Shown here: in pieces, positions 45,705 through 56,353 of the stretch
Position numbering within the stretch: position 1 is the first letter of the stretch
Layout: every line of letters starts with the position of its first letter
NCBI GenBank assembly: GCA_015075635.1
Contig: JABTUA010000001.1
Span: 434,001 to 498,000 of the forward strand
Source of the DNA: Polyangiaceae bacterium
Lineage (GTDB): Bacteria; Myxococcota_A; Polyangia; Polyangiales; Polyangiaceae
Direction of reading: 5' to 3'
Length of the DNA: 64,000 bases
The notes under the pieces: generated by a model
What the model saw: only the letters and a program-made list of their open reading frames with translations
Told to the model about the DNA's origin: nothing
Databases searched by the model: none
Position numbers and translations under genes: made by a program

Positions 45705-46745
45705 ATGCAGCTCCGCGTCCGTACCCCCCTGCTTCTCGCCGCCGCCCTCGTCGCGTCGAGCCCGGCCTTCGCTCAATCCCCCGTCGAGACCCCGACCGCC
45801 GACTCCCCCGACGAAGCTTCCAAGCTCTTCAAGAAAGGCAACGAAGCCTACAAGCTGAAGAAGTGGGACGAGGCCGCCGCCGCGTTCAAGGAAGCGTGGG
45901 CGCTGAAGCAGAGCTACGACATCGCCGGAAACCTAGGTGACGTCGAGGTCTACCTGGGGAAGTACCGGGATGCGGCCGAGCATTTGGAGTTCAGCTTGCG
46001 CAACTGGCCCGCGGGGCAAGAGGCGAGCAAGAAGCGCACGCAAGAGCGGTTCGCGGAAGCGAAGAAGAGCGTGGGAACGCTCTCGCTCAAGGTGAGCGAA
46101 GGCGCCGAGATCACCGTCAACGGCAAGACCGTCGGCAAGTCCCCGCTGCCGGGACCGGTGTTCATCGAGCCGGGAGCGGCGACGATCGAGGCGAAGATCG
46201 GCGAGAAGTCGGCGAAGAAGACGATCGCGATGGATGTGGGCGAGGCGCGCGAGATCGAGCTCACGATCGAAGGCGAGGCGGCGGCGGTGGGGCCGGAGGT
46301 TCCTCCGGGTGAAAGCGGAAGCGCCAGCGCGGGTGGAAGCGCGACCGCGGACGTCAAACCGCCGAGCGGTTCCAACGTGCGGACCATCGGCATGATCGCG
46401 TCGGGAGCGGTCGCGGTGATCGGCCTCGGTGTCGGCGTCGGCTTCTACATGGCGAAGCAGTCGGCGAAGGATGACGCCGAGGGATACAAGGCGGATGCGG
46501 TGAAGCAGTTAGGATCCGGCGGCTGTCCGAAGACCGGCAAGACCGGAGTCTGCGCGGACCTTGCCGACGCGAACGACAGCGTGAAGAGCAACGGTACAAT
46601 CTCGACGATTGGTTTCATCGGAGCAGGCGTGGGCGCTGCAGCCTTCGTGGCCTTCATGCTGATGCCGGGCAGCAAGCAGGGCACGGCCATTCATCCGATC
46701 TTGGATCAGCACACCGCTGGCCTCGGTGCATACGGGCGCTTCTGA
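45705..46745 (+). CDS. Secreted TPR-PEGA membrane protein, complete copy of the amplified family
   Basis: The 346-residue product has a signal peptide (LLLAAALVASSPAFAQ), two TPR-like units (KKGNEAYKLKKWDEAAAAFKEAW and the next helix pair, about 40-115) and a PEGA-like domain (LSLKVSEGAEITVNGKTVGK, about 125-200). A Gly/Ser linker and two Gly-rich membrane segments follow. The loop between them has a Cys pair (CPKTGKTGVC), and the C-terminus is GLGAYGRF. The Gly-rich lipoprotein gene starts 17 nt downstream. From base 46191 on, the sequence is duplicated at 49167 and, for about 110 bp, at 54102. Confidence 0.83.
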   Translation: MQLRVRTPLLLAAALVASSPAFAQSPVETPTADSPDEASKLFKKGNEAYKLKKWDEAAAAFKEAWALKQSYDIAGNLGDVEVYLGKYRDAAEHLEFSLRNWPAGQEASKKRTQERFAEAKKSVGTLSLKVSEGAEITVNGKTVGKSPLPGPVFIEPGAATIEAKIGEKSAKKTIAMDVGEAREIELTIEGEAAAVGPEVPPGESGSASAGGSATADVKPPSGSNVRTIGMIASGAVAVIGLGVGVGFYMAKQSAKDDAEGYKADAVKQLGSGGCPKTGKTGVCADLADANDSVKSNGTISTIGFIGAGVGAAAFVAFMLMPGSKQGTAIHPILDQHTAGLGAYGRF

Positions 46746-46762
46746 GAATCGAAGGGGACGAC

Positions 46763-48424
46763 ATGAAGAAGATGGGCTTTGCTTTTGTGCTCGTGGCTGT
46801 CGGCATGACGGCGGCGGTGGTCGGCGGTTGCGGCGGTGACGACTTCGACTCTTGCGAGGCGAACAACGACTGCGGCGGCACAGGCGGTGCCGACGGCGGG
46901 ACCGGCGCGAGCGGTGGCACAGGCGGGACCGGAAACACCGGAGGGACGGGCGGGACCGGAAACACGGGCGGCACGGGTGGAACCGGTGGAACCGGCGGAA
47001 CCGGCGGCGATGGCGGTGGCTGCGACACCAGCAAGACCCCCAGCGATGAGGCGTGCCTCGTCGCTGACGAGTTCGGCGTGTTCGTGTCGCCGACCGGCGA
47101 CGACAGCGCCAACGACGGAACGAAGTCGAAACCGTTCAAGACGATCGGGAAGGCCCTGACCACGGCGGGAACGGCAGGCAAGAACGTCTACGCCTGCGAC
47201 GACGGCACGGGGATCACTGAGAGCGCGACCATGGCCGTCAGCGCGGCGCACGACAAGCACGGGATCTACGGCGGGTTCGACTGCACGAGCTGGGCCTGGT
47301 CGGCGACCGCGAAGGCCAAGGTGAGCGGCGCTCCGGTTGCCCTCACGATCTCGAACATCGCCACGAGCTTCAAGGTCGAGAACCTCGACATCACCGCGGC
47401 GAACGCGACTAACTCGGGCGAGAGCAGCTTCGGAGCAATCGTCACGGGCCTCGAAGGGCGTGGCGTTTACGATGGGGTGAATCTCACCGCGGGTGATGGG
47501 AAGGCGGGAGCCGCGGGCGGAGATGGAACGCAGGGCGCGGACGGTGCGGATGCGACGGCGGCGCAGAACGGCAAGCAGGCAACGTGCACAAGCGCACCCG
47601 GGACGCAACTCGGGGGTGCGTGGACGGCGCCTAGCTTGTGCAGCTCGAAAGGCGGAACGGGCGGCACCGCGAACATCGGCTCCGCCGGAGAGAAGGGGTC
47701 CGCTGGAATACCTCAGACCAACGTCAGTCCAGCCAGCGTCAACAACGGCGGCGACGCCGGGACTGGAACAGCCAACGGTGTCGCCGGCTCCGCGGGCTCG
47801 AACGGCAACTCCGGTCAGCTCGGAACGGCCGCCGCTGCCGGCGGAACGTTCACTTCTGCCGGGTTCACGGTCGCCAACGGCAACGACGGTGGCGACGGGT
47901 TCCCTGGACAAGGCGGCGGAGGTGGCGGTGGAAGCTCAAGTGCGTCGGGGAGCTGCATCGGCGCCTCCGGCGGCGCCGGCGGCATGGGCGGCTGCGGCGG
48001 CGGCAAGGGCACGGGCGGCAAGGGCGGCGGCGCGAGCGTCGCGCTGCTGTCCTGGCAGAGCGAAGTCTCCCTCACCGGCTCCACGCTCACGTCGAAGAAG
48101 GGCGGCGACGGCGGCAAGGGCGGCCTTGCCGGACCAGGCGGGTCCGGCAAGGCCGGTGGTCAAGGAGGACTTGCCGGGGGCGGTCTCGCCAAGGGTGGTG
48201 GCGGCGGCGAGGGCGGTAATGGCGGCAACGGCGGCTCCGGCTCCGGCGGTACCGGCGGCCCTAGCTACGCGCTGGTCTGGAGCGGCACCAAGCCCAGCGG
48301 TGGCGCGCTTCAAGAGGGCACCGGCGGTGCGAAGGGACCGGGTGGTGCGGTACAGGGGTCGGGCCTGAACCCGGCGCCGGACGGTTCCGCGGGACTGGCA
48401 GCAAAAGAGTTCGAGCAGAAGTGA
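46763..48424 (+). CDS. Gly-rich beta-helix lipoprotein, copy 1
   Basis: The 553-residue protein has a lipobox (VVGGC), a GGTGGTGG linker (about 38-85) and a DUF1565-like segment (FVSPTGDDSANDGTKSKPF...IYGGFDC). Short parallel beta-helix rungs (about 185-240) and a Gly-rich C-terminal half (GGAGGMGGCGGGKGTGGKGG) follow. It sits 17 nt after the PEGA gene and is probably co-translated with it. Relative to copy 2 it carries an extra C at about 47450 and an extra AT at 47472-47473. Together these restore the frame but change the residues between them (LEGRGVYDG in place of SKGVAFTG). Confidence 0.8.
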   Translation: MKKMGFAFVLVAVGMTAAVVGGCGGDDFDSCEANNDCGGTGGADGGTGASGGTGGTGNTGGTGGTGNTGGTGGTGGTGGTGGDGGGCDTSKTPSDEACLVADEFGVFVSPTGDDSANDGTKSKPFKTIGKALTTAGTAGKNVYACDDGTGITESATMAVSAAHDKHGIYGGFDCTSWAWSATAKAKVSGAPVALTISNIATSFKVENLDITAANATNSGESSFGAIVTGLEGRGVYDGVNLTAGDGKAGAAGGDGTQGADGADATAAQNGKQATCTSAPGTQLGGAWTAPSLCSSKGGTGGTANIGSAGEKGSAGIPQTNVSPASVNNGGDAGTGTANGVAGSAGSNGNSGQLGTAAAAGGTFTSAGFTVANGNDGGDGFPGQGGGGGGGSSSASGSCIGASGGAGGMGGCGGGKGTGGKGGGASVALLSWQSEVSLTGSTLTSKKGGDGGKGGLAGPGGSGKAGGQGGLAGGGLAKGGGGGEGGNGGNGGSGSGGTGGPSYALVWSGTKPSGGALQEGTGGAKGPGGAVQGSGLNPAPDGSAGLAAKEFEQK

Positions 48425-48449
48425 AGGTCGGCTGAGACCGAAGTCGCAG

Positions 48450-48806
48450 TCACCTCGAAGCGATCGCCTCCCTCACCCGCGCCACCGCCTCCGCCACGTC
48501 AGCCCGCACCACCTCCGCCTCCACCCGCACGACGCGGTACCCCAGCCTGGCGAGGTACCGGTCCCTGCGCGCATCCGCCGCCCGGCGCGCCGCGTGATAC
48601 CCGCCATCCACCTCCACGACCAGCTTCACCGAGGGGGCGAGGAAGTCCACCACGTAGCGCCCCACCGGCACCTGACGCCGAAACGCGACCCCGAGCCGCC
48701 CGCCCCGCAGTTCCCGCCACAACATTTCCTCGGTGTCCGTCAGCGCGAGGCGCATCTCGCGAGCTCGTGCGATGATGAGCGGAGAGCTTCGGGGATGATG
48801 GGCCAT
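48450..48806 (-). CDS. DUF559 nuclease-like protein, copy 1
   Basis: The start at ATG 48806 is supported by a strong ribosome-binding site (GGGAGGAGGAAG) just upstream; the longer frame is spurious. The 118-residue protein matches the DUF559 (Vsr/PD-(D/E)XK-like) pattern: EEMLWRELRGGRLGVAFRRQ, VGRYVVDFLAPSVKLVVEVD, GGYHAARRAADARRDRYLAR and GYRVVRVEAEVV. The D-x12-E-x-D spacing fits a nuclease active site. It points against the flanking lipoprotein gene. Copy 2 encodes an identical protein, with only synonymous changes seen (for example at 48658 and 48711). Biological role unknown. Confidence 0.82.
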   Translation of the reverse strand: MAHHPRSSPLIIARAREMRLALTDTEEMLWRELRGGRLGVAFRRQVPVGRYVVDFLAPSVKLVVEVDGGYHAARRAADARRDRYLARLGYRVVRVEAEVVRADVAEAVARVREAIASR

Positions 48807-48819
48807 GGGACTTCCTCCT

Positions 48820-48989
48820 CCCGGCGTGACGGCCGGGCTTTGCGACCCCTCGGCGCACGATCTGTGACACGCCGCCCAGCATCCGCTTCGCTGCACGCTG
48901 CCGCCGTCCAAGCACAGAGCTCTTCCCCGTCACGCGCGGCGTGGCGCAGAGCGTGCGCCAGCGGAGCGGAGCCCGGCCGTCACGCCGGG
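48820..48989. repeat. Inverted-repeat (foldback) spacer, copy 1
   Basis: The 20-base arm CCCGGCGTGACGGCCGGGCT at 48820-48839 recurs as its exact reverse complement at 48970-48989. The intervening 130 bp contains further GC-rich partial palindromes. The left arm overlaps the DUF559 ribosome-binding region. An identical foldback occurs in copy 2. The rest of the spacer up to 49166 has no gene; it carries AGCGGCGAAGCCGCG-type hairpins. Confidence 0.7.
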
Positions 48990-49166
48990 CGGAAGGACGC
49001 TGCGGCACATCGTCCCGAAGCTCGCAGCGAAGCAGCGCGCGGGCGAGATCGCCAAGACGCGAGCGGGGCAGAGTCCCTCCCTGCCGCGCGCAGCGGCGAA
49101 GCCGCGAGCACGGCTTTGGGAGGGACCGGCGCCGCGAAGCGGCGACGAGGGTGGGCAGGAAGAGAG

Positions 49167-49715
49167 GCGAAGATCGGCGAGAAGTCGGCGAAGAAGACGA
49201 TCGCGATGGACGTGGGCGAAGCGCGCGAGATCGAGCTCACGATCGAAGGCGAGGCGGCGGCGGTGGGGCCGGAGGTTCCTCCGGGTGAAAGCGGAAGCGC
49301 CAGCGCGGGTGGAAGCGCGACCGCGGACGTCAAGCCCCCGAGCGGTTCCAACGTGCGGACCATCGGCATGATCGCGTCGGGAGCGGTCGCGGTGATCGGG
49401 CTTGGCGTGGGCGTCGGCTTCTACATGGCGAAGCAGTCGGCGAAGGATGACGCCGAAGCGCTTCGGGCGGACAACACACTTGGAACGACCGGGTGCGCAA
49501 CCGGAGCGAGCTCGTCGATTTGCGCCGACCTTGCCGACGCCAACGATCGCGCGCAGAGCAGCCGCACGATTTCGACGATCGGGTTCATCGGCGCAGGCGT
49601 GGGTGCGGCGGCGTTCGTCGCGTTCCTCCTGATGCCGAGCTCGAGGAGCTCGACTGCGATACATCCGCTACTAGACCAGCACACAGCGGGCTTGGGCGCC
49701 TTCGGCCGCTTCTGA
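49167..49715 (+). pseudogene. 5'-truncated TPR-PEGA gene, copy 2
   Basis: From GCGAAGATCGGC (AKIGEKSAKKTIAMDVGEAR) to the terminal GLGAFGRF, the sequence matches gene 45705-46745, including both membrane segments and the Cys pair (CATGASSSIC). The signal peptide, TPR helices and first part of the PEGA domain are absent, replaced at an abrupt junction by spacer DNA. The frame is open upstream but has no credible start; internal ATG 49206 could yield only a fragment. The gene is therefore probably non-functional, though its open frame could still couple translation to the lipoprotein gene 19 nt downstream. Confidence 0.72.
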
Positions 49716-49734
49716 ACACCAAGGGGACCAGCAA

Positions 49735-51396
49735 ATGAAGAGGATGGGCTTTGCTTTTGTGCTCGGCGCGATCGCGGTTGGGGCGGCAGGCACGGTGGCG
49801 TGCGGCGGAGAGGACTTCGACTCCTGCGAGGCAAACGCGACTTGTCCGCCCGGGACCGGAGGAACCGACGGCGGAACCGGCGGGAGCGGGGGGAGCGGGG
49901 GGACCAGTGGCACGGGCGGAACGGGGAACACCGGCGGCACCGGCGGAGCCGGCGGCACCGGCGGCACCGGCGGAACCGGCGGCGATGGCGGTGGCTGCGA
50001 CACCAGCAAGACCCCCAGCGAAGAGGCGTGCCTCGTCACTGACGAGTTCGGCGTGTTCGTGTCGCCGACCGGCGACGACAGCGCCAACGACGGAACGAAG
50101 TCGAAACCGTTCAAGACGATCGGGAAGGCCCTGACCACGGCGGGAACGGCAGGCAAGAACGTCTACGCCTGCGACGACGGCACGGGGATCACTGAGAGCG
50201 CGACCATGGCCGTCAGCGCGGCGCACGACAAGCACGGGATCTACGGCGGGTTCGACTGCACGAGCTGGGCCTGGTCGGCGACCGCGAAGGCCAAGGTGAG
50301 CGGCGCTCCGGTTGCCCTCACGATCTCGAACATCGCCACGAGCTTCAAGGTCGAGAACCTCGACATCACCGCGGCGAACGCGACTAACTCGGGCGAGAGC
50401 AGCTTCGGAGCAATCGTCACGGGCTCGAAGGGCGTGGCGTTTACGGGGGTGAATCTCACCGCGGGTGATGGGAAGGCGGGAGCCGCGGGCGGAGATGGAA
50501 CGCAGGGCGCGGACGGTGCGGATGCGACGGCGGCGCAGAACGGCAAGCAGGCAACGTGCACAAGCGCACCCGGGACGCAACTCGGGGGTGCGTGGACGGC
50601 GCCTAGCTTGTGCAGCTCGAAAGGCGGAACGGGCGGCACCGCGAACATCGGCTCCGCCGGAGAGAAGGGGTCCGCTGGAATACCTCAGACCAACGTCAGT
50701 CCAGCCAGCGTCAACAACGGCGGCGACGCCGGGACTGGAACAGCCAACGGTGTCGCCGGCTCCGCGGGCTCGAACGGCAACTCCGGTCAGCTCGGAACGG
50801 CCGCCGCTGCCGGCGGAACGTTCACTTCTGCCGGGTTCACGGTCGCCAGCGGCAACGACGGAGGCGACGGCTTCCCCGGCCAAGGCGGCGGCGGCGGCGG
50901 CGCGAGCTCGAGCTCGTCCGCCAGCTGCATCGGCGCCTCCGGCGGCGCCGGCGGCATGGGCGGCTGCGGCGGTGGGAAGGGCACCGGTGGCAAGGGCGGC
51001 GGCGCGAGCGTCGCGCTGCTGTCCTGGCAGAGCGAAGTCTCCCTCACCGGCTCCACGCTCACGTCGAAGAAGGGCGGCGACGGCGGCAAGGGCGGAAGCG
51101 CGGCGGCCGGCGGTACCGGCAAGTCCGGTGGGCAGGGCGGCCCCGCCGGCGGCGGCCTTGGAAGCGGAGGACCGGGTGGCCCGGGCGGCACCGGCGGGCC
51201 CGGTGGCTCCGGCTCCGGCGGTACCGGCGGCCCTAGCTACGCGCTGGTCTGGAGCGGCACCAAGCCCAGCGGTGGCGCGCTTCAAGAGGGCACCGGCGGT
51301 GCGAAGGGACCGGGTGGTGCGGTACAGGGGTCGGGCCTGAACCCGGCGCCGGACGGTTCCGCGGGACTGGCAGCAAAAGAGTTCGAGCAGAAGTGA
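49735..51396 (+). CDS. Gly-rich beta-helix lipoprotein, copy 2
   Basis: The 553-residue protein starts at ATG 49735 with a lipobox (GAAGTVAC). Its linker differs from copy 1 (PPGTGGTDGGTGGSGGSGG). The DUF1565-like and beta-helix centre is then identical over long stretches, and the Gly-rich C-terminal half is partly different. The centre is conserved while both ends vary, a pattern that suggests gene conversion or modular exchange. It is preceded by the truncated PEGA copy. Confidence 0.8.
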   Translation: MKRMGFAFVLGAIAVGAAGTVACGGEDFDSCEANATCPPGTGGTDGGTGGSGGSGGTSGTGGTGNTGGTGGAGGTGGTGGTGGDGGGCDTSKTPSEEACLVTDEFGVFVSPTGDDSANDGTKSKPFKTIGKALTTAGTAGKNVYACDDGTGITESATMAVSAAHDKHGIYGGFDCTSWAWSATAKAKVSGAPVALTISNIATSFKVENLDITAANATNSGESSFGAIVTGSKGVAFTGVNLTAGDGKAGAAGGDGTQGADGADATAAQNGKQATCTSAPGTQLGGAWTAPSLCSSKGGTGGTANIGSAGEKGSAGIPQTNVSPASVNNGGDAGTGTANGVAGSAGSNGNSGQLGTAAAAGGTFTSAGFTVASGNDGGDGFPGQGGGGGGASSSSSASCIGASGGAGGMGGCGGGKGTGGKGGGASVALLSWQSEVSLTGSTLTSKKGGDGGKGGSAAAGGTGKSGGQGGPAGGGLGSGGPGGPGGTGGPGGSGSGGTGGPSYALVWSGTKPSGGALQEGTGGAKGPGGAVQGSGLNPAPDGSAGLAAKEFEQK

Positions 51397-51421
51397 AGGT
51401 CGGCTGAGACCGAAGTCGCAG

Positions 51422-51778
51422 TCACCTCGAAGCGATCGCCTCCCTCACCCGCGCCACCGCCTCCGCCACGTCAGCCCGCACCACCTCCGCCTCCACCCGC
51501 ACGACGCGGTACCCCAGCCTGGCGAGGTACCGGTCCCTGCGCGCATCCGCCGCCCGGCGCGCCGCGTGATACCCGCCATCCACCTCCACGACCAGCTTCA
51601 CCGAGGGGGCGAGGAAGTCCACCACGTAACGCCCCACCGGCACCTGACGCCGAAACGCGACCCCGAGCCGCCCGCCCCGCAGCTCCCGCCACAACATTTC
51701 CTCGGTGTCCGTCAGCGCGAGGCGCATCTCGCGAGCTCGTGCGATGATGAGCGGAGAGCTTCGGGGATGATGGGCCAT
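51422..51778 (-). CDS. DUF559 nuclease-like protein, copy 2
   Basis: The 118-residue product is identical to that of copy 1 as read from the translations. The nucleotide differences I could see are synonymous (for example at 51630 and 51683). The ribosome-binding site and upstream foldback arm are also conserved. Retention of an intact, identical nuclease in both units is consistent with recent duplication or with selection. There is no copy after unit 3. Confidence 0.82.
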   Translation of the reverse strand: MAHHPRSSPLIIARAREMRLALTDTEEMLWRELRGGRLGVAFRRQVPVGRYVVDFLAPSVKLVVEVDGGYHAARRAADARRDRYLARLGYRVVRVEAEVVRADVAEAVARVREAIASR

Positions 51779-51791
51779 GGGACTTCCTCCT

Positions 51792-51961
51792 CCCGGCGTG
51801 ACGGCCGGGCTTTGCGACCCCTCGGCGCACGATCTGTGACACGCCGCCCAGCATCCGCTTCGCTGCACGCTGCCGCCGTCCAAGCACCGAGCTCTTCCCC
51901 GTCACGCGCGGCGTGGCGCAGAGCGTGCGCCAGCGGAGCGGAGCCCGGCCGTCACGCCGGG
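51792..51961. repeat. Inverted-repeat (foldback) spacer, copy 2
   Basis: The arms at 51792-51811 and 51942-51961 are the same 20-base inverted repeat as in copy 1. The spacer continues to 52078, where the intron begins, and resumes at 54042. Confidence 0.7.
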
Positions 51962-52118
51962 CGGAAGGACGATGCGGCACATCGTCCCGAAGCTCGCAGC
52001 GAAGCAGCGCGCGGGCGAGATCGCCAAGACGCGAGCGGGGCAGAGTCCCTCCCTGCCGCGCGCAGCGGCGAAGCCGCGGTCGGGTGGGCCCCGGCAGTTA
52101 CCTGCCGGGGCCTCCCAC

Positions 52119-52152
52119 AGATCCGGACGTGCGGATTTCCCGCATCCGGCTC
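52119..52152 (-). ncRNA. Group II intron domain V
   Basis: The 34-nt catalytic hairpin has the expected features: GAGCCGGATGCGGG on one side, a GAAA-like terminal loop, and CCGCACGTCCGG with the two-base bulge on the other side. It is the most conserved ribozyme element and fixes the orientation of the intron as minus. Confidence 0.88.
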
Positions 52153-52157
52153 CTCGG

Positions 52158-53501
52158 TCACGGATTCGCTACGAGACGTGCGCGCACGACCGACGGCTTC
52201 GGGAGCGGGTAGCGCTCCAGAAGCCTGTTCATCGCCGCCCAGTCCAAATACGCCTTGTCGGAGCGGCGCGACAGCCACCGCCGCCACAGGCAGGTCACGT
52301 GCCAGTAGAAGCACCAGAGACGGCCAAAGTTCCCTGTACGGCCGTAGTAGCCGTAGTGTCCAGCGAGCTTCGCCGCCAGCACACGTTGCTGCTCGCGGAT
52401 GGGCTCGTGCCGGTGTAGCCGACACCACTGGGTGATTGCACCCAGCGCCCTGCGATGGCGGTCCTTCGCTGTTCGCATCCTCACCACCCACTTGCCAGCG
52501 AGGCTCTTGCCCCAGTGGAAGGTGAAGCCGAGGAAGCTGAAGGTCCCGGGCCCGCTGGGTCCCCGGCCGTCGCCGCGCGAACCAGGTCGGATGCGATCGG
52601 GCCGCTTGAACGGCACCAGGCGCGTCTTGTCCGGGTGGAGCGCGAGCCCGTACTTCCCAAACCTTTTGAAGCACGTCGAGCACGCGCCGCGCGTCGTCCT
52701 CGTATTCGAACAGCATCGCGGCATCGTCCGCGTATCGAACGAGTGTGCCCGCCCTCGAAGTCGGGGTCGGACCTCTCGCTCAAACCACACGTCGAGCACT
52801 TCGTGCAGGTAGATGTTCGCCAAAATCGGCGAAATCACCCCGCCTTGTGGCGTGCCGGCATCGGGGTAGCTCAGCTCTCCGTCCTCCAGCACGCCCGCGT
52901 TCAGCCACTTTCCGATGAGACGCAGAATGACTCCGTCTCGCACCCTGCGGCGCAGCACTTCCCGCAGACGTTCGTGGTCGAGAGTGTCGAAATACTTTCG
53001 TATGTCGAGCTCCACGACCCAACCGCCAGCCATCTTCACCGCCGGTGTCCAAAGCTCTTCGAGCGCCTGGCGCGCGGAGCGCCCAGGACGGAACCCGAAT
53101 GAGCAGTTCAGGAAGTCCTGCTCGTAGATCGCTTCGAGCACCATCGCGACGGCGCGTTGCAAAACCTTGTCCTCGAAAGTCGGGATCCCCAGCGGACGCG
53201 TTTCCTTCCCGTCCCCTTCGGGATGTGCGCGTCGCACTGGCGGCGCGCGGTACGCTCCGGACTTCGCGCGGTCGAGCAGCGATCGGAGGTTTCCCTCCAG
53301 GTTTTCCGCATACTCTTTCGCGCTCTGCCCATCGACGCCCACGGCCCCATCCTTGCGAGTCCGTCGGTATGCCTCGCGCAGCCACTCCAGGTCGATGTGA
53401 TGCGCCAGCGTCGTGAATGCCATGTCGGGCGCTTGCTGCGCCTGCTTTGCTATCCGCTCGAGTTTCGTTGAGATGGTGGTCAAGCTCGGTGTCTCGGTCA
53501 T
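52158..53501 (-). CDS. ltrA: Group II intron reverse transcriptase/maturase with displaced YADD motif
   Basis: The open frame (start at 53501, [13 protein letters not shown], with GAGGGCAAG upstream; a longer start at 53540 exists) contains reverse-transcriptase blocks [46 protein letters not shown] and [17 protein letters not shown]. It ends in the maturase region ([20 protein letters not shown]). No HNH endonuclease domain follows. The catalytic block [20 protein letters not shown] is encoded at about 52670-52740 but in another frame. In this frame the stretch reads [20 protein letters not shown] 1-base loss near 52743 and a 1-base gain near the A-run at 52663-52668 explain it. The protein is probably inactive unless these are sequence errors. 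Confidence 0.85.
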
Positions 53502-53540
53502 CTTGCCCTCGCTCGGTTCCGTGAAACGCTTTCCCGACAC

Positions 53541-54041
53541 CGCCCTTCGCTCCGCCGGGTCGCTTGGGCGGCTTCCCGGCTTCGTCGCTACTATGGCGGT
53601 GCTCCGACTTCCCGCTGCCCCACCTTGCTCACTTGCGCTCGCTTGGCGGTTCCGGTCGCCCGGAGCAAACAGGACCTCTCAAGTTCCCTGGTGACCCTCG
53701 CTGTACATGCCGTGCTCTCCGACCGCGGCAGGCCGATGAGGACGCGCCGTCGGGGCGTTGCCCCTGACTCTTGCCTCACCGATGTTGCCTTCCGGGGTGT
53801 GCTGTCCCGTCGGCTCCCACCACTTCCCAAATTTCGCAGCCCAATCACACGGCCTGCACCCTCGCTGCCTACGCTTCGCAGCAAGCCTCCCTGTTCGGTT
53901 GGAGTTGCCACGCAAGGCTCGCTTCCAGATGGCGGCGCACCCTTGGCTGGGCGGGATTCGAACCCGCTGGGTCACTCACCTGGTTTCAGCTTTGTATTGG
54001 CTTCTACATGGCATCCTCCAGGACAGAGCTTCTTGACGCAC
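53541..54041 (-). ncRNA. Group II intron 5' region (ribozyme domains I-IV)
   Basis: This roughly 500-bp stretch upstream of the maturase gene has no gene. It should form domains I-III and the start of domain IV of the intron RNA. It opens with GTGCGTCAAG and contains several GC-rich inverted repeats, including a T-arm-like GCGGGTTCGAATCCCGC at 53949-53970. I did not fold the individual domains. Confidence 0.7.
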
Positions 54042-54101
54042 AGCACGGCTTTGGGAGGGACCGGCGCCGCGAAGCGGCGACGAGGGTGGGCAGGAAGAGA
54101 G

Positions 54102-54680
54102 GCGAAGATCGGCGAGAAGTCGGCGAAGAAGACGATCGCGATGGATGTGGGCGAGGCGCGCGAGATCGAGCTCACGATCGAAGGCGAGGCGGCGGCGGTG
54201 GGGCCGGAGCCTGCCCCGGCAGCTGGTGGACCTTCGGAGCCTGACCCAGGAGCTGGCGGTGGAATCAAAGCCGACTCGTCCGGAATGAAGCCGAGAACCT
54301 TGGCGCTCATCGCCGGCGCAGGTCTCACCGTGGTCGCTGCCGGCGTCGGCGTGTTCTACACACTGAAGAAGTCCAGCGCGCAGGACGACGCCGATGGCCT
54401 GCGTTCGGAGCTCTCCTCCAAGTTTGGCGGGCAGGCCTGCAGCGGGTCATCAGCGCCAGCGCAGTGCGCTGACTTGACGGACGCGCTCGAGCGCCGCGAC
54501 GATGCCGGGCGAATCTCGACCGGTGCGTTCATCGCGAGCGGAGGGTTGCTCGCCGCAACGGCCGTTACATACTTCGTCTGGCCGTCCGGACATGAAAGCA
54601 GTCCCAAGGCGGGGCGCTTGAACATCTTTGCCACTCCCCAGTCACGAGGCGCGATGATGGGGGTGGTGGGTAGCTTCTGA
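54102..54680 (+). pseudogene. 5'-truncated TPR-PEGA gene, copy 3 (mosaic)
   Basis: The first 108 bp match copy 1 at 46191-46298 (AKIGEKSAKKTIAMDVGEAR...EGEAAAVGPE). The sequence then switches to a diverged paralogue with its own linker, two membrane segments, Cys pair (CSGSSAPAQC) and C-terminus MMGVVGSF. The N-terminal half is missing at exactly the same junction as in copy 2. It shares the spacer bases 54042-54101 with the end of unit 1. No credible start codon with a signal peptide is present. Confidence 0.7.
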
Positions 54681-54694
54681 GGGGCGAAAATCAC

Positions 54695-56353
54695 ATGCGT
54701 ATTCGACGTCATTTCCTGGGTGTGTTCTTCGCTTCGTCCGCCGCCGCGAGCGCGTTGGCGCTGGCGGGATGCGGCGGCGATGACTTTTCGTGCGAGGACT
54801 CACTGAGCTGCGGCACCGGCGGTACCGACGGCGGGACCGGCGCGAGCGGTGGCACAGGCGGGACCGGAAACACCGGAGGGACGGGCGGGGCCGGGAACAC
54901 GGGAGGCACCGGCGGAACCGGCGGAACCGGTGGCACCGGCGGCGACGGTGGCGGCTGCGACGTCAGCAAGTCGCCCGGAGCCGAAGCGTGTCTCATCGAC
55001 GAGCAGTTTGGTGTGTTCGTCGATGCCGGAAGCAACGCGGCCAGCCCCGACGGGTCGCGCGCCTCGCCTTACAAGACGATTGGCGCTGCGCTCGCAGGCG
55101 CCGGCTCGAAGAAGATCTTCGTCTGCAACACGAACGGTGCCTACAAGGAGACCGTCTCGATCACTTCGAGCGCCACCACCTCCGGACTCTACGGCGGCTT
55201 CGATTGCGCCGATTGGAAGTACTCGACCTCCTCCCGCGCCCAGGTCGAGTCGAGTGACGCCACCGCCTGGAAGATCGACGGCGTGGACGGCTTGGCTGTC
55301 GAGAGCTTCGAGGTGAAGGCCTCCGACGGAAAGTCAGCGGGTGACGCGAGCATCGCGATGCTGGTCGCTAACGCCAAGAACATCAACGTCAGCGCGAGCA
55401 AGCTCGTCGCGGGCAACGGCATGGCGGGAAGCGCGGGCACGGAGACCACGACGCCCGCCGAGAAGGGCGCCGATGGCAAGAAGGGATCCGACGCGTGCGC
55501 GGCCACACCGGCAGGCGGCACTGCGTCGACGACGTCCTGCGGGGGCAGCGCGACCGGCAGCGTCGGCGGCAAGGGCGGGGACGGCGCGGTTGGGATCACG
55601 GCTCCGGGCGGTGGCGGGAGTGATGGCCTACCCCTCGGCTCCGGTGGAAAAGGCGGCGCCGGGGAGACTTCGGTCGCCTTCACTTGCGTAACTGGAAATG
55701 GTACGCCCGGCAATCCCGGCAATCCCGGCAAAGGCTCCAATTCCATTGGGACTCTGAGCGCCAGCGGCTTCGCTCCAGCGACTGCTGAGTCGGGCACGGA
55801 GGGCGGCGTCGGGCAGGGCGCCGGCGGGGGCGGCGGTGCGAAGGCGCCGCTCCTCACGACGGCCTGCGGAGGCACGGGAGCGACGAAGACCGGTGCCAGC
55901 GGTGGCAGCGGGGGCGGCGGCGGTTGCGGCGGCAAGCAGGGCGGCGGTGGCAAGGGCGGCGGCGCGAGCATCGCGATCGCGAGCGTCGCCTCCACGTTGA
56001 CCCTTACGAACTGCGAGCTCATCGCCGGCACCGGCGGAAAGGGCGGCGACGGAGGCTCGGGGCAGCCGGGCGGGAGCGGTGGAGGCGCGGGACCGAAGGG
56101 GATTGGCGCCAGCGGGTCCGCGGATGCCTGCGCGGGCGGCGAAGGCGGAAAAGGCGGGAACGGCGGCCCGGGCGGTGGCGCGGCCGGGGGCGCGAGCGTC
56201 GGGGTGGCCTACGTGGGGACGAAGCCGGTGCGCACCGGCGGGAGCGTGACGAAGGCTTCGACTGCGGCGAGCGGTGGCGCGGACGGCCTGGGCCAGACGA
56301 CGGGCGCCGGGGTCGGCGCGGCGGGCAAGGTCGAGGACGAGCTCGCGTTCTGA
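54695..56353 (+). CDS. Gly-rich beta-helix lipoprotein, diverged copy 3
   Basis: The 552-residue protein has a lipobox (ALALAGC), a GGTGG linker and a DUF1565-like segment (FVDAGSNAASPDGSRASPYKTIGAAL...LYGGFDC). Beta-helix rungs and a Gly-rich C-terminal half ending VEDELAF follow. Its sequence is clearly diverged from copies 1 and 2, but the architecture and the 14-nt gap after a PEGA gene are the same. This shows that the two-gene module predates the recent amplification. Confidence 0.8.
   Translation: MRIRRHFLGVFFASSAAASALALAGCGGDDFSCEDSLSCGTGGTDGGTGASGGTGGTGNTGGTGGAGNTGGTGGTGGTGGTGGDGGGCDVSKSPGAEACLIDEQFGVFVDAGSNAASPDGSRASPYKTIGAALAGAGSKKIFVCNTNGAYKETVSITSSATTSGLYGGFDCADWKYSTSSRAQVESSDATAWKIDGVDGLAVESFEVKASDGKSAGDASIAMLVANAKNINVSASKLVAGNGMAGSAGTETTTPAEKGADGKKGSDACAATPAGGTASTTSCGGSATGSVGGKGGDGAVGITAPGGGGSDGLPLGSGGKGGAGETSVAFTCVTGNGTPGNPGNPGKGSNSIGTLSASGFAPATAESGTEGGVGQGAGGGGGAKAPLLTTACGGTGATKTGASGGSGGGGGCGGKQGGGGKGGGASIAIASVASTLTLTNCELIAGTGGKGGDGGSGQPGGSGGGAGPKGIGASGSADACAGGEGGKGGNGGPGGGAAGGASVGVAYVGTKPVRTGGSVTKASTAASGGADGLGQTTGAGVGAAGKVEDELAF

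Follow-up and report, generated by a model that had tools for sequence, protein, structure and literature searches.

The subject of this analysis is a tandem gene array in a 64,000-nucleotide stretch of a Polyangiaceae genome (GenBank assembly GCA_015075635.1, contig JABTUA010000001.1, positions 434,001 to 498,000 of the forward strand; hereafter the window), and above all the DUF559 nuclease gene that recurs in it. The genome comprises 9.47 Mb in five contigs (G000), and the window lies on the 3.6-Mb contig C1. In its array, a PEGA-like gene, a glycine-rich lipoprotein-like gene and a DUF559 gene on the opposite strand follow one another repeatedly (Table 1). A self-comparison of the window, as called for in an earlier note on this DNA, showed that the repeat array is real: 46188-49106 aligned to 49164-52078 at 92.3% identity, and 49107-49274 to 54042-54209 at 98.8%. 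The spacing of 2,972 bp that had been read from the gene starts (46763/49735 and 48450/51422) was verified. Unit 1 spans 46188-49163, while unit 2 consists of 49164-52078 plus 54042-54098, with 92% identity between the units. What splits unit 2 is a group II intron of 1,963 bp that the earlier note had missed.

The junction between the units had been reported to occur twice, which is correct, and PEGA-like copies 2 and 3 indeed lack the same 5' half. Because GAG is common to both sides, we place the junction at 49163/49164 and 54098/54099 rather than at the cut chosen before. The description of the locus as a three-copy array holds for the shared junction that precedes copy 3, but not for the body of that copy. 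The first 111 bp of PEGA-like copy 3 equal those of copy 1, after which the two diverge, the 5' parts of the corresponding lipoprotein genes match at 85.5% over 214 bp, and lipoproteins 3 and 1 are 45% identical. Given this low identity and the shortness of the matching 5' stretches, most of "copy 3" is an old paralogue that follows the common junction. A nuclease had been assigned to every unit; the array has DUF559 genes in two units only. The label PEGA has a weak match behind it (E 0.037), but this falls under the Pfam cut-off and TPR repeats were matched instead. The label "beta-helix" is unsupported, since a Pfam search at E<=5 gave no match for the lipoprotein. Units 1 and 2 are ~100% identical over ~47088-47867 (with one 3-base gap) and over 48288-49163 (with a few single changes), and drop to ~40-90% (60-bp bins) at the PEGA C-terminus, the lipoprotein N-terminus and two further lipoprotein patches. 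This patchwork of matching and divergent segments is suggestive of gene conversion among older copies. PEGA-lipoprotein pairs are present elsewhere in the genome too.

Table 1. Features of the array (positions in the window)
Feature	Position	Strand	Remark
PEGA-like/TPR gene 1, full length	45705..46745	+	Pfam TPR 1e-6; PEGA E 0.037, below cut-off
Glycine-rich lipoprotein-like gene 1	46763..48424	+	"lipoprotein" is the earlier note's label
DUF559 nuclease gene 1	48450..48911	-	PF04480 E 1.5e-29
5' region and terminus of DUF559 element 1	48912..49163	-	same terminus in a sister species
Hairpin arms of DUF559 element 1	49073-49081; 49118-49126		GTCCCTCCC; GGGAGGGAC
PEGA-like gene 2, without 5' half, fused to element terminus	49164..49715	+
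Glycine-rich lipoprotein-like gene 2	49735..51396	+	92% identical to gene 1
DUF559 nuclease gene 2	51422..51883	-
DUF559 element 2, 5' region, inner part, cut by intron	51884..52078	-
Group II intron in hairpin region of DUF559 element 2	52079..54041	-	RF02005 and RF00029 at its two ends
Intron reverse transcriptase/maturase frame	52158..53540	-	PF00078; TIGR04416 286 bits against a cut-off of 300
DUF559 element 2 terminus, outer part, past the intron	54042..54098	-
PEGA-like gene 3, without 5' half, same junction	54099..54680	+
Glycine-rich lipoprotein-like gene 3, old paralogue	54695..56353	+	45% to gene 1

The array breakpoint is exactly the 5' hairpin end of the DUF559 element. Searched against this genome, the DUF559 protein of the window gave 28 matches, including two adjacent pieces of one place, and the Pfam DUF559 model gave 27, with 14 and 13 in two congeneric genomes. 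The occurrence of DUF559 is patchy: at least one match to the Pfam model was found in 25 of 59 genomes, this one included. Contig C1 carries six copies in differing surroundings, with 96-99.6% identity over 370-806 bp. Three of the six have the 5' terminus TTCCTGCCC in common, one begins slightly inward and two are shortened. Wherever the 5' end is shared by these C1 copies the order is the same, namely TTCCTGCCC, a C-rich hairpin and the DUF559 gene. A copy at a purC-like gene has the same 5' end, and one at a uppS-like gene has that end minus one base. The window hairpin, with the arms GTCCCTCCC and GGGAGGGAC, follows the same plan, and the array junction is its outer end, which on the DUF559 strand reads TTCCTGCCC. 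When the junction was sought elsewhere in the genome, the hairpin part was found to recur; this part adjoins other DUF559 genes and is present at a few sites without DUF559 (the best 40 of more candidates were scored).

No fixed 3' end was found across the DUF559 subfamilies. Retrotransposition with a simple-repeat 3' tail was suggested by the (CTT)n/GTGGCG tails and two 5'-shortened copies of one subfamily, and was set aside because other DUF559 subfamilies have no such tail; allowing at most 2 mismatches, 10 places show the tail pattern. Several further arrangements were seen around DUF559 loci. Multiple places of contig C2 (1-152 kb; loci L096-L100) hold copies of a 2.2-kb unit that ends in DUF559, with 98-100% identity among them, and L104 has a shorter piece; this is a further amplification involving DUF559. 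At L088 (6080-7002) the region upstream of DUF559 is present as tandem 312-bp copies without the gene. At L112 (3665-5084; C2:1471000-1481000) a hairpin without DUF559 is flanked by a 74-bp direct duplication (96%), and this is perhaps an element with other cargo. A SAM riboswitch (RF00162) is located near the DUF559 locus of L099 (1491-1600).

The orthologous locus in two congeneric genomes, G001 and G002, also has DUF559, with an Mrr-type nuclease gene nearby that is Pfam-confirmed in G001 and was called in G002 from reading the translation. In this genome the element terminus meets the PEGA-like gene at residue 162, in G002 at residue ~189 and in G001, where the terminus lacks a few bases, at residue ~335. 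These differing junctions would result from independent insertions and from deletions anchored at the end alike, and the terminus would be involved either way. In the sister loci L132 (9588-10490) and L134 (925-3009) the Mrr-type gene lies between the lipoprotein and DUF559 genes, and in G002 so does a DAC/DACNV-like gene.

Host DNA next to DUF559 was then compared with control positions under one and the same criterion, a direct repeat of at least 60 bp of which one copy ends no more than 750 bp upstream of the gene and the other no more than 2.5 kb downstream. Flanking direct duplications were present in 17 of 48 DUF559 tests in this bacterial family versus 20 of 300 control positions (P-value 3e-7), the positives being split into 6/26 for this genome and 11/22 for other genomes. 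Eleven of the 48 tests came from regions fetched for their paired DUF559 genes or an adjoining lipoprotein. Regions of other genomes fetched without such choice were positive in 5 of 11 cases, and without the picked regions 11 of 37 tests remained positive versus 20/300 (P-value 1e-4). For this genome alone, 6/26 corresponds to a P-value of 0.01. The duplicated stretches range from 65 bp (with a search floor of 60) to more than 1,000 bp, and no target-site duplication of fixed length was found at 60 bp or more. The control hits of this test include other direct repeats in the window, at ~38.7-42.3 kb, 4.8-5.3 kb and 13.8 kb.

Two single-gene cases illustrate the arrangement. At the uppS-like gene, 142 bp of the 3' end recur past the hairpin at 88% identity, and at the purC-like gene this applies to 80 bp at 84% identity. 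The purC remnant encodes G and N, as do G001 and G002, while the full gene has A and S. For uppS, the full end and the remnant resemble each other more than they resemble the sequence of either sister, and no DUF559 was found within 1.5 kb downstream of uppS in G001 and G002 (tblastn E<=1e-4). In 10 of 25 cases, judged by reading, a convincing gene precedes DUF559 in tail-to-tail orientation, with 10-145 bp in between. Among these genes are uppS-, purC-, hemW-, acyl-CoA dehydrogenase-, ABC permease- and HAD-phosphatase-like ones, names that derive from reading translations and not from a family search. The proposal that the array is a surface-antigen cassette was dropped, because DUF559 follows many unrelated genes and the lipoprotein has no Pfam match.

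The intron that splits unit 2 has the ribozyme 5' part (RF02005, 53713-53960), the domain V-VI end (RF00029, 52079-52154) and the reverse transcriptase of a group II intron. Among the best 40 of 182 candidates, a search in which more distant introns may be passed over, it has three full genomic copies including itself, the other two at 99-100% identity, and a related intron (~70% to the window intron) also has three. All six copies of the two introns carry both Rfam ends, and all six lie on the DUF559 strand in the 5' region upstream of a DUF559 gene, at a distance of <50 to ~470 bp; at one gene, one intron is situated past the other. The reverse transcriptase frame of the window intron seems shifted over a short stretch where the active-site motif YADD would be expected, and a frame at 51952-52716 spans that part; this intron copy may be inactive. 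A third insertion of ~1.75 kb upstream of DUF559 genes was seen at L088 (4427-6171), L089 (4763-6505) and L108 (3150-5131), with 94-98% identity among the three loci. In L088 its longest frame (403 amino acids) had no Pfam match, and no Rfam intron was found in it.

The DUF559 protein of the window matches PF04480 with 102.5 bits (gathering score 20.6). Only the DUF559 and MTES_1575 models were matched, and no tyrosine transposase. Residues E100, D102, H106 and D113 are invariant in an alignment of 14 sequences and are probably catalytic. Profile matches of the DUF559 alignment include the endonuclease-like protein 3hrl (E 1e-22) and 3r3p, which is I-Bth0305I (E 0.004). In a predicted model, with core blocks mostly at 85-96 pLDDT, 3hrl and 3r3p were again the best fold matches; for I-Bth0305I the Foldseek E-value was 5.6e-5 and the TM score by target length 0.66-0.73. 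A Vsr-like fold, as had been claimed, is therefore upheld at the level of prediction, but 3hrl and I-Bth0305I match better than Vsr (E ~0.01). Relatives of the window protein were present in 24 of 72,556 plasmid records and absent from 50,697 phage records (tblastn E<=1e-5). Of related proteins, E. coli YcjD is a member of the PD-(D/E)XK family related to Vsr according to the accessible text of PMC1189080, and VsrA of Caulobacter, a DUF559-domain protein, is tied to the DNA damage response in the available part of PMC12907096.

Outside this bacterial family, DUF559 genes are commonly bracketed by palindromes. A scan with the DUF559 alignment, using one genome per species, kept 80 loci, of which 75 were testable and 5 were not; two of the 75, both negative, were from the sister genome G001. 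In a test that used 300 bp on each side of the gene and no motif, inverted repeats bracketed DUF559 in 45 of 75 loci (39/62 first counted plus 6/13 added), compared with 1 of 190 control genes from the 62 loci and 1 of 310 shuffled flanks. The best repeat was inverted at 35 of the 62 loci and direct at 7. Most of the bracketing repeats are C-rich palindromes; on inspection by eye their outer parts were mostly C-rich, and one (L205) ends in GTAG. A C-rich core was located within 300 bp of DUF559 at 40 of 62 loci versus 11 of 103 intergenic windows, and at 46 of 75 with the added loci. In a Deinococcus plasmid, DUF559 lies within the paa operon, between paaD and paaZ, with inverted ends of 56 bp that are 98% identical. 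The palindrome CCCTCTCCC-N3-14-GGGAGAGGG is dispersed in many DUF559-bearing genomes: the top five counts among 34 genomes searched were 198, 148, 115, 62 and 59, versus 0-3 for the reversed control, and 4 of 22 named genomes had none. Two candidate generalizations did not survive. Hairpin stem strength was a weak test (0.25 vs 0.17 for 10-bp stems upstream, and no difference downstream), and flanking direct duplications are not general to bacteria, given that outside this family 6 of 7 were palindromes.

In E. coli KE47, three C-rich palindromes lie 3' of the DUF559 gene ycjD, and the upstream palindrome is of another kind; E. coli K-12 has ycjD at the same place. The E. coli palindrome is one that we take to be "Box C", and its size and number are given in the accessible part of PMC2267715. 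At least 80% of the ycjD region is held by 3,362 of 5,426 genomes. E. coli was rejected as a clean case of ycjD presence and absence, two strains without ycjD having an efflux (eef) operon there; according to the available text of PMC12817139, phylogroups A, B1 and C, along with ST69 and ST182, carry ycjD where the eef operon would otherwise lie. In Azospirillum plasmids, the seven records that cover most of the DUF559 region all keep it.

Observed are the copies and their terminus, the palindromes, the intron insertions and, at some loci, duplications on both sides; the mobility of DUF559 and the order of events are inferred. Since matching palindromes bracket such genes in dozens of unrelated bacteria, we read DUF559 as mobile, that is, as a palindrome-tagged single-gene nuclease element and likely an overlooked kind of mobile element. 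With an inverted 3' copy of the palindrome in most testable loci elsewhere, the gene has the look of a tiny transposon or REPtron. The element has a single gene, for a nuclease whose predicted fold is Vsr/I-Bth0305I-like, and its 5' end bears a C-rich palindrome, which the nuclease would handle by cutting or binding it. Where both ends are palindrome-tagged, the element would be a bounded unit. In the form of this family, which has no 3' palindrome, the 5' end would be joined precisely to the target, whereas the unbounded 3' end would be settled by homology with a resident gene, so that host DNA is duplicated and a remnant left. The product would be X-DUF559-(remnant of X), an arrangement found in the array and also at the purC-like and uppS-like genes, and direct repeats of X around the nuclease could then give rise to a tandem array by unequal exchange. 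For the array itself, whose junction is a DUF559 hairpin end, it is close to an even call that a one-ended insertion copied the PEGA-lipoprotein segment, which unequal crossing-over then multiplied. The earlier idea that the array is linked to its nuclease thus keeps its core, in that the breakpoint is the element end and duplications flank DUF559, but loses its surface-antigen part. As for the self-amplification proposed earlier, which would be a putative property, the junction common to copies 2 and 3 is equally expected from plain unequal crossing-over after one repeat-making insertion.

A wider proposal is possible, though we would sooner doubt it than adopt it: DUF559 may be the dedicated nuclease of cosmopolitan C-rich palindromes, self-moving in units of ~500 bp in Proteobacteria, Bacteroidota, Cyanobacteria, Deinococcota and others, and a nuclease-based counterpart of RAYT/REP. 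Its one-ended Polyangiaceae branch would capture adjacent host operons, multiply them and be the preferred home of group II introns. If this is true, these would perhaps be the smallest self-moving elements known.

Several observations weigh against one-ended insertion and against the palindromes as its tags. Within the Polyangiaceae, an inverted 3' repeat was found in only 1 of 44 copies, and 20 of 42 passed a test for both C-rich arms, in which intron-split and shortened copies were scored as misses. Later deletions that started from the end of the element could account for the differing PEGA junctions. As many as 31 of 48 DUF559 tests had no flanking duplication. Counted once per locus, this genome gave 4/24 versus 20/300 (P-value 0.09), so the excess is weak in this genome by itself, and host duplications beside DUF559 are significant only once the sister genomes are included. 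In other taxa, direct repeats were found at 7 of 64 loci versus 3 of 248 controls, and six of the seven were palindromes, not host DNA. The P-value of the C-rich core is not independent, because the core was chosen from hairpins of the same loci. Among six plasmid or E. coli DUF559 loci, one had inverted ends outside the frame. Within this bacterial family the number of palindromes does not follow DUF559: there is one copy in this genome, none in G001, one in G002 and none in G029, while the relatives G015 and G005, without a DUF559 hit, hold 35 and 5 (control 2). Lastly, DUF559 adjoins the palindrome in 1 of 80 viral contigs chosen for it; the palindrome is mostly alone there.

The rival that competes most directly is a free-standing homing endonuclease, whereby DUF559 would cut an X without DUF559, X-DUF559 would be copied in with co-conversion of the 3' end of X, and one side joined without homology would leave the remnant; the palindromes would then not be its substrate. 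The fold and profile likeness to I-Bth0305I speaks for it, as do its tail-to-tail position at a distance of 10-145 bp from a convincing gene (10/25 cases, by reading) and the purC remnant, which keeps the residues of the sister species where the full gene differs. There is also a precedent in phage T6, where, in the accessible text of PMC13096335, a free-standing homing nuclease drives tandem amplification. Classic homing accounts for DUF559 lying at gene tails and for the replacement of the purC end, but for neither the palindromes nor the spread behind unrelated genes: near-identical copies behind different genes of one genome are unlike homing to one allele, and the inverted palindromes around DUF559 in other taxa are left unexplained. 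We consider it unlikely on balance. That the nuclease is a mere passenger, with ordinary unequal crossing-over of PEGA-like paralogues and a coincidental hairpin junction, is improbable. The identical junctions of copies 2 and 3 and the long identical stretches do fit unequal exchange and gene conversion, further PEGA-lipoprotein pairs exist in the genome, and the duplication excess beside DUF559 is weak here; coincidence is, however, hard to reconcile with a breakpoint at the exact element terminus, with the same terminus joining other PEGA positions in two sister species, and with duplications in 11/37 DUF559 tests (unpicked sister regions included) versus 20/300 controls.

DUF559 might instead be a repair or defence nuclease like VsrA, piling up together with palindromes in permissive intergenic sites. 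The link of Caulobacter VsrA to the DNA damage response, as far as the available part of PMC12907096 goes, and the Mrr-type nuclease gene that adjoins DUF559 in G001 would suit such a role. Permissive sites as such, however, carry the C-rich core in just 11/103 intergenic controls versus 40/62 beside DUF559, and the paired inverted arrangement occurs at just 1/190 other genes, which makes this explanation quite improbable. An assembly artefact, in which fewer units are real and the contig mis-joins repeats, is hardly credible. Draft contigs of the sisters do break within the PEGA-like repeat, but assembly error is argued against because the units differ at many bases and an intron splits only one of them, in a contig of 3.6 Mb.

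If the array arose by one-ended insertion at the hairpin end, "random unequal crossing-over" gives way to an element whose insertions would make amplifiable host segments, and a nuclease-based kind would be added to the REP elements. An orphan repeat and a little-known nuclease would become one testable system, for which E. coli ycjD is a ready laboratory case. In the open literature, covered mostly at the level of titles and beginnings of abstracts, we found no pairing of DUF559 with palindromic repeats and no mobiliser of C-rich palindromes, and VsrA of Caulobacter was the only functional report on DUF559.

Set beside an insertion sequence, the DUF559 element occupies several sites with a 5' end common to three of six close copies, and no fixed 3' end was seen across its subfamilies. 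Transposition of IS91/ISCR elements is one-ended, with one precise end and another that varies and takes along adjacent DNA; the DUF559 element likewise has one precise end, but no rolling-circle transposase was seen here. E. coli YcjD shares the order of a DUF559 gene followed by three C-rich palindromes (KE47), whereas it is single-copy and its upstream palindrome is of another kind. With I-Bth0305I, a homing endonuclease of the EDxHD family, DUF559 shares the predicted fold and a profile match (E 0.004), but it is free-standing, is palindrome-flanked in other taxa and lacks phage relatives at tblastn E<=1e-5. SegB of phage T6 is, in the accessible part of PMC13096335, a free-standing homing nuclease gene that was tandemly amplified with its neighbour; it is a tested GIY-YIG phage enzyme, unlike the DUF559 array, which is bacterial, chromosomal and interpreted from sequence. 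The REPtron differs in its enzyme, since RAYT, the tyrosine transposase of REP palindromes (per the available text of PMC3733652), contrasts with a nuclease of Vsr-like predicted fold; the DUF559 palindromes are mostly C-rich, and in this bacterial family the inverted 3' repeat was seen in 1/44 copies. The same accessible text mentions a CGTC-tagged REP superfamily, a different repeat, without a dedicated transposase. We place the DUF559 element neither with the REPtrons nor with the homing nucleases, because it is without the tyrosine transposase that defines the former, and the act that defines the latter, cleavage of a DUF559-less allele, is for DUF559 a putative one, of which the remnants at the purC-like and uppS-like genes are no more than suggestive. 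What it does share with the REPtron is the plan seen in other taxa, in which inverted palindromes enclose one gene and are scattered through genomes on their own as well; other genomes have up to 198 copies of the palindrome, and in this one few DUF559-less hairpins were seen among the best 40 of more candidates.

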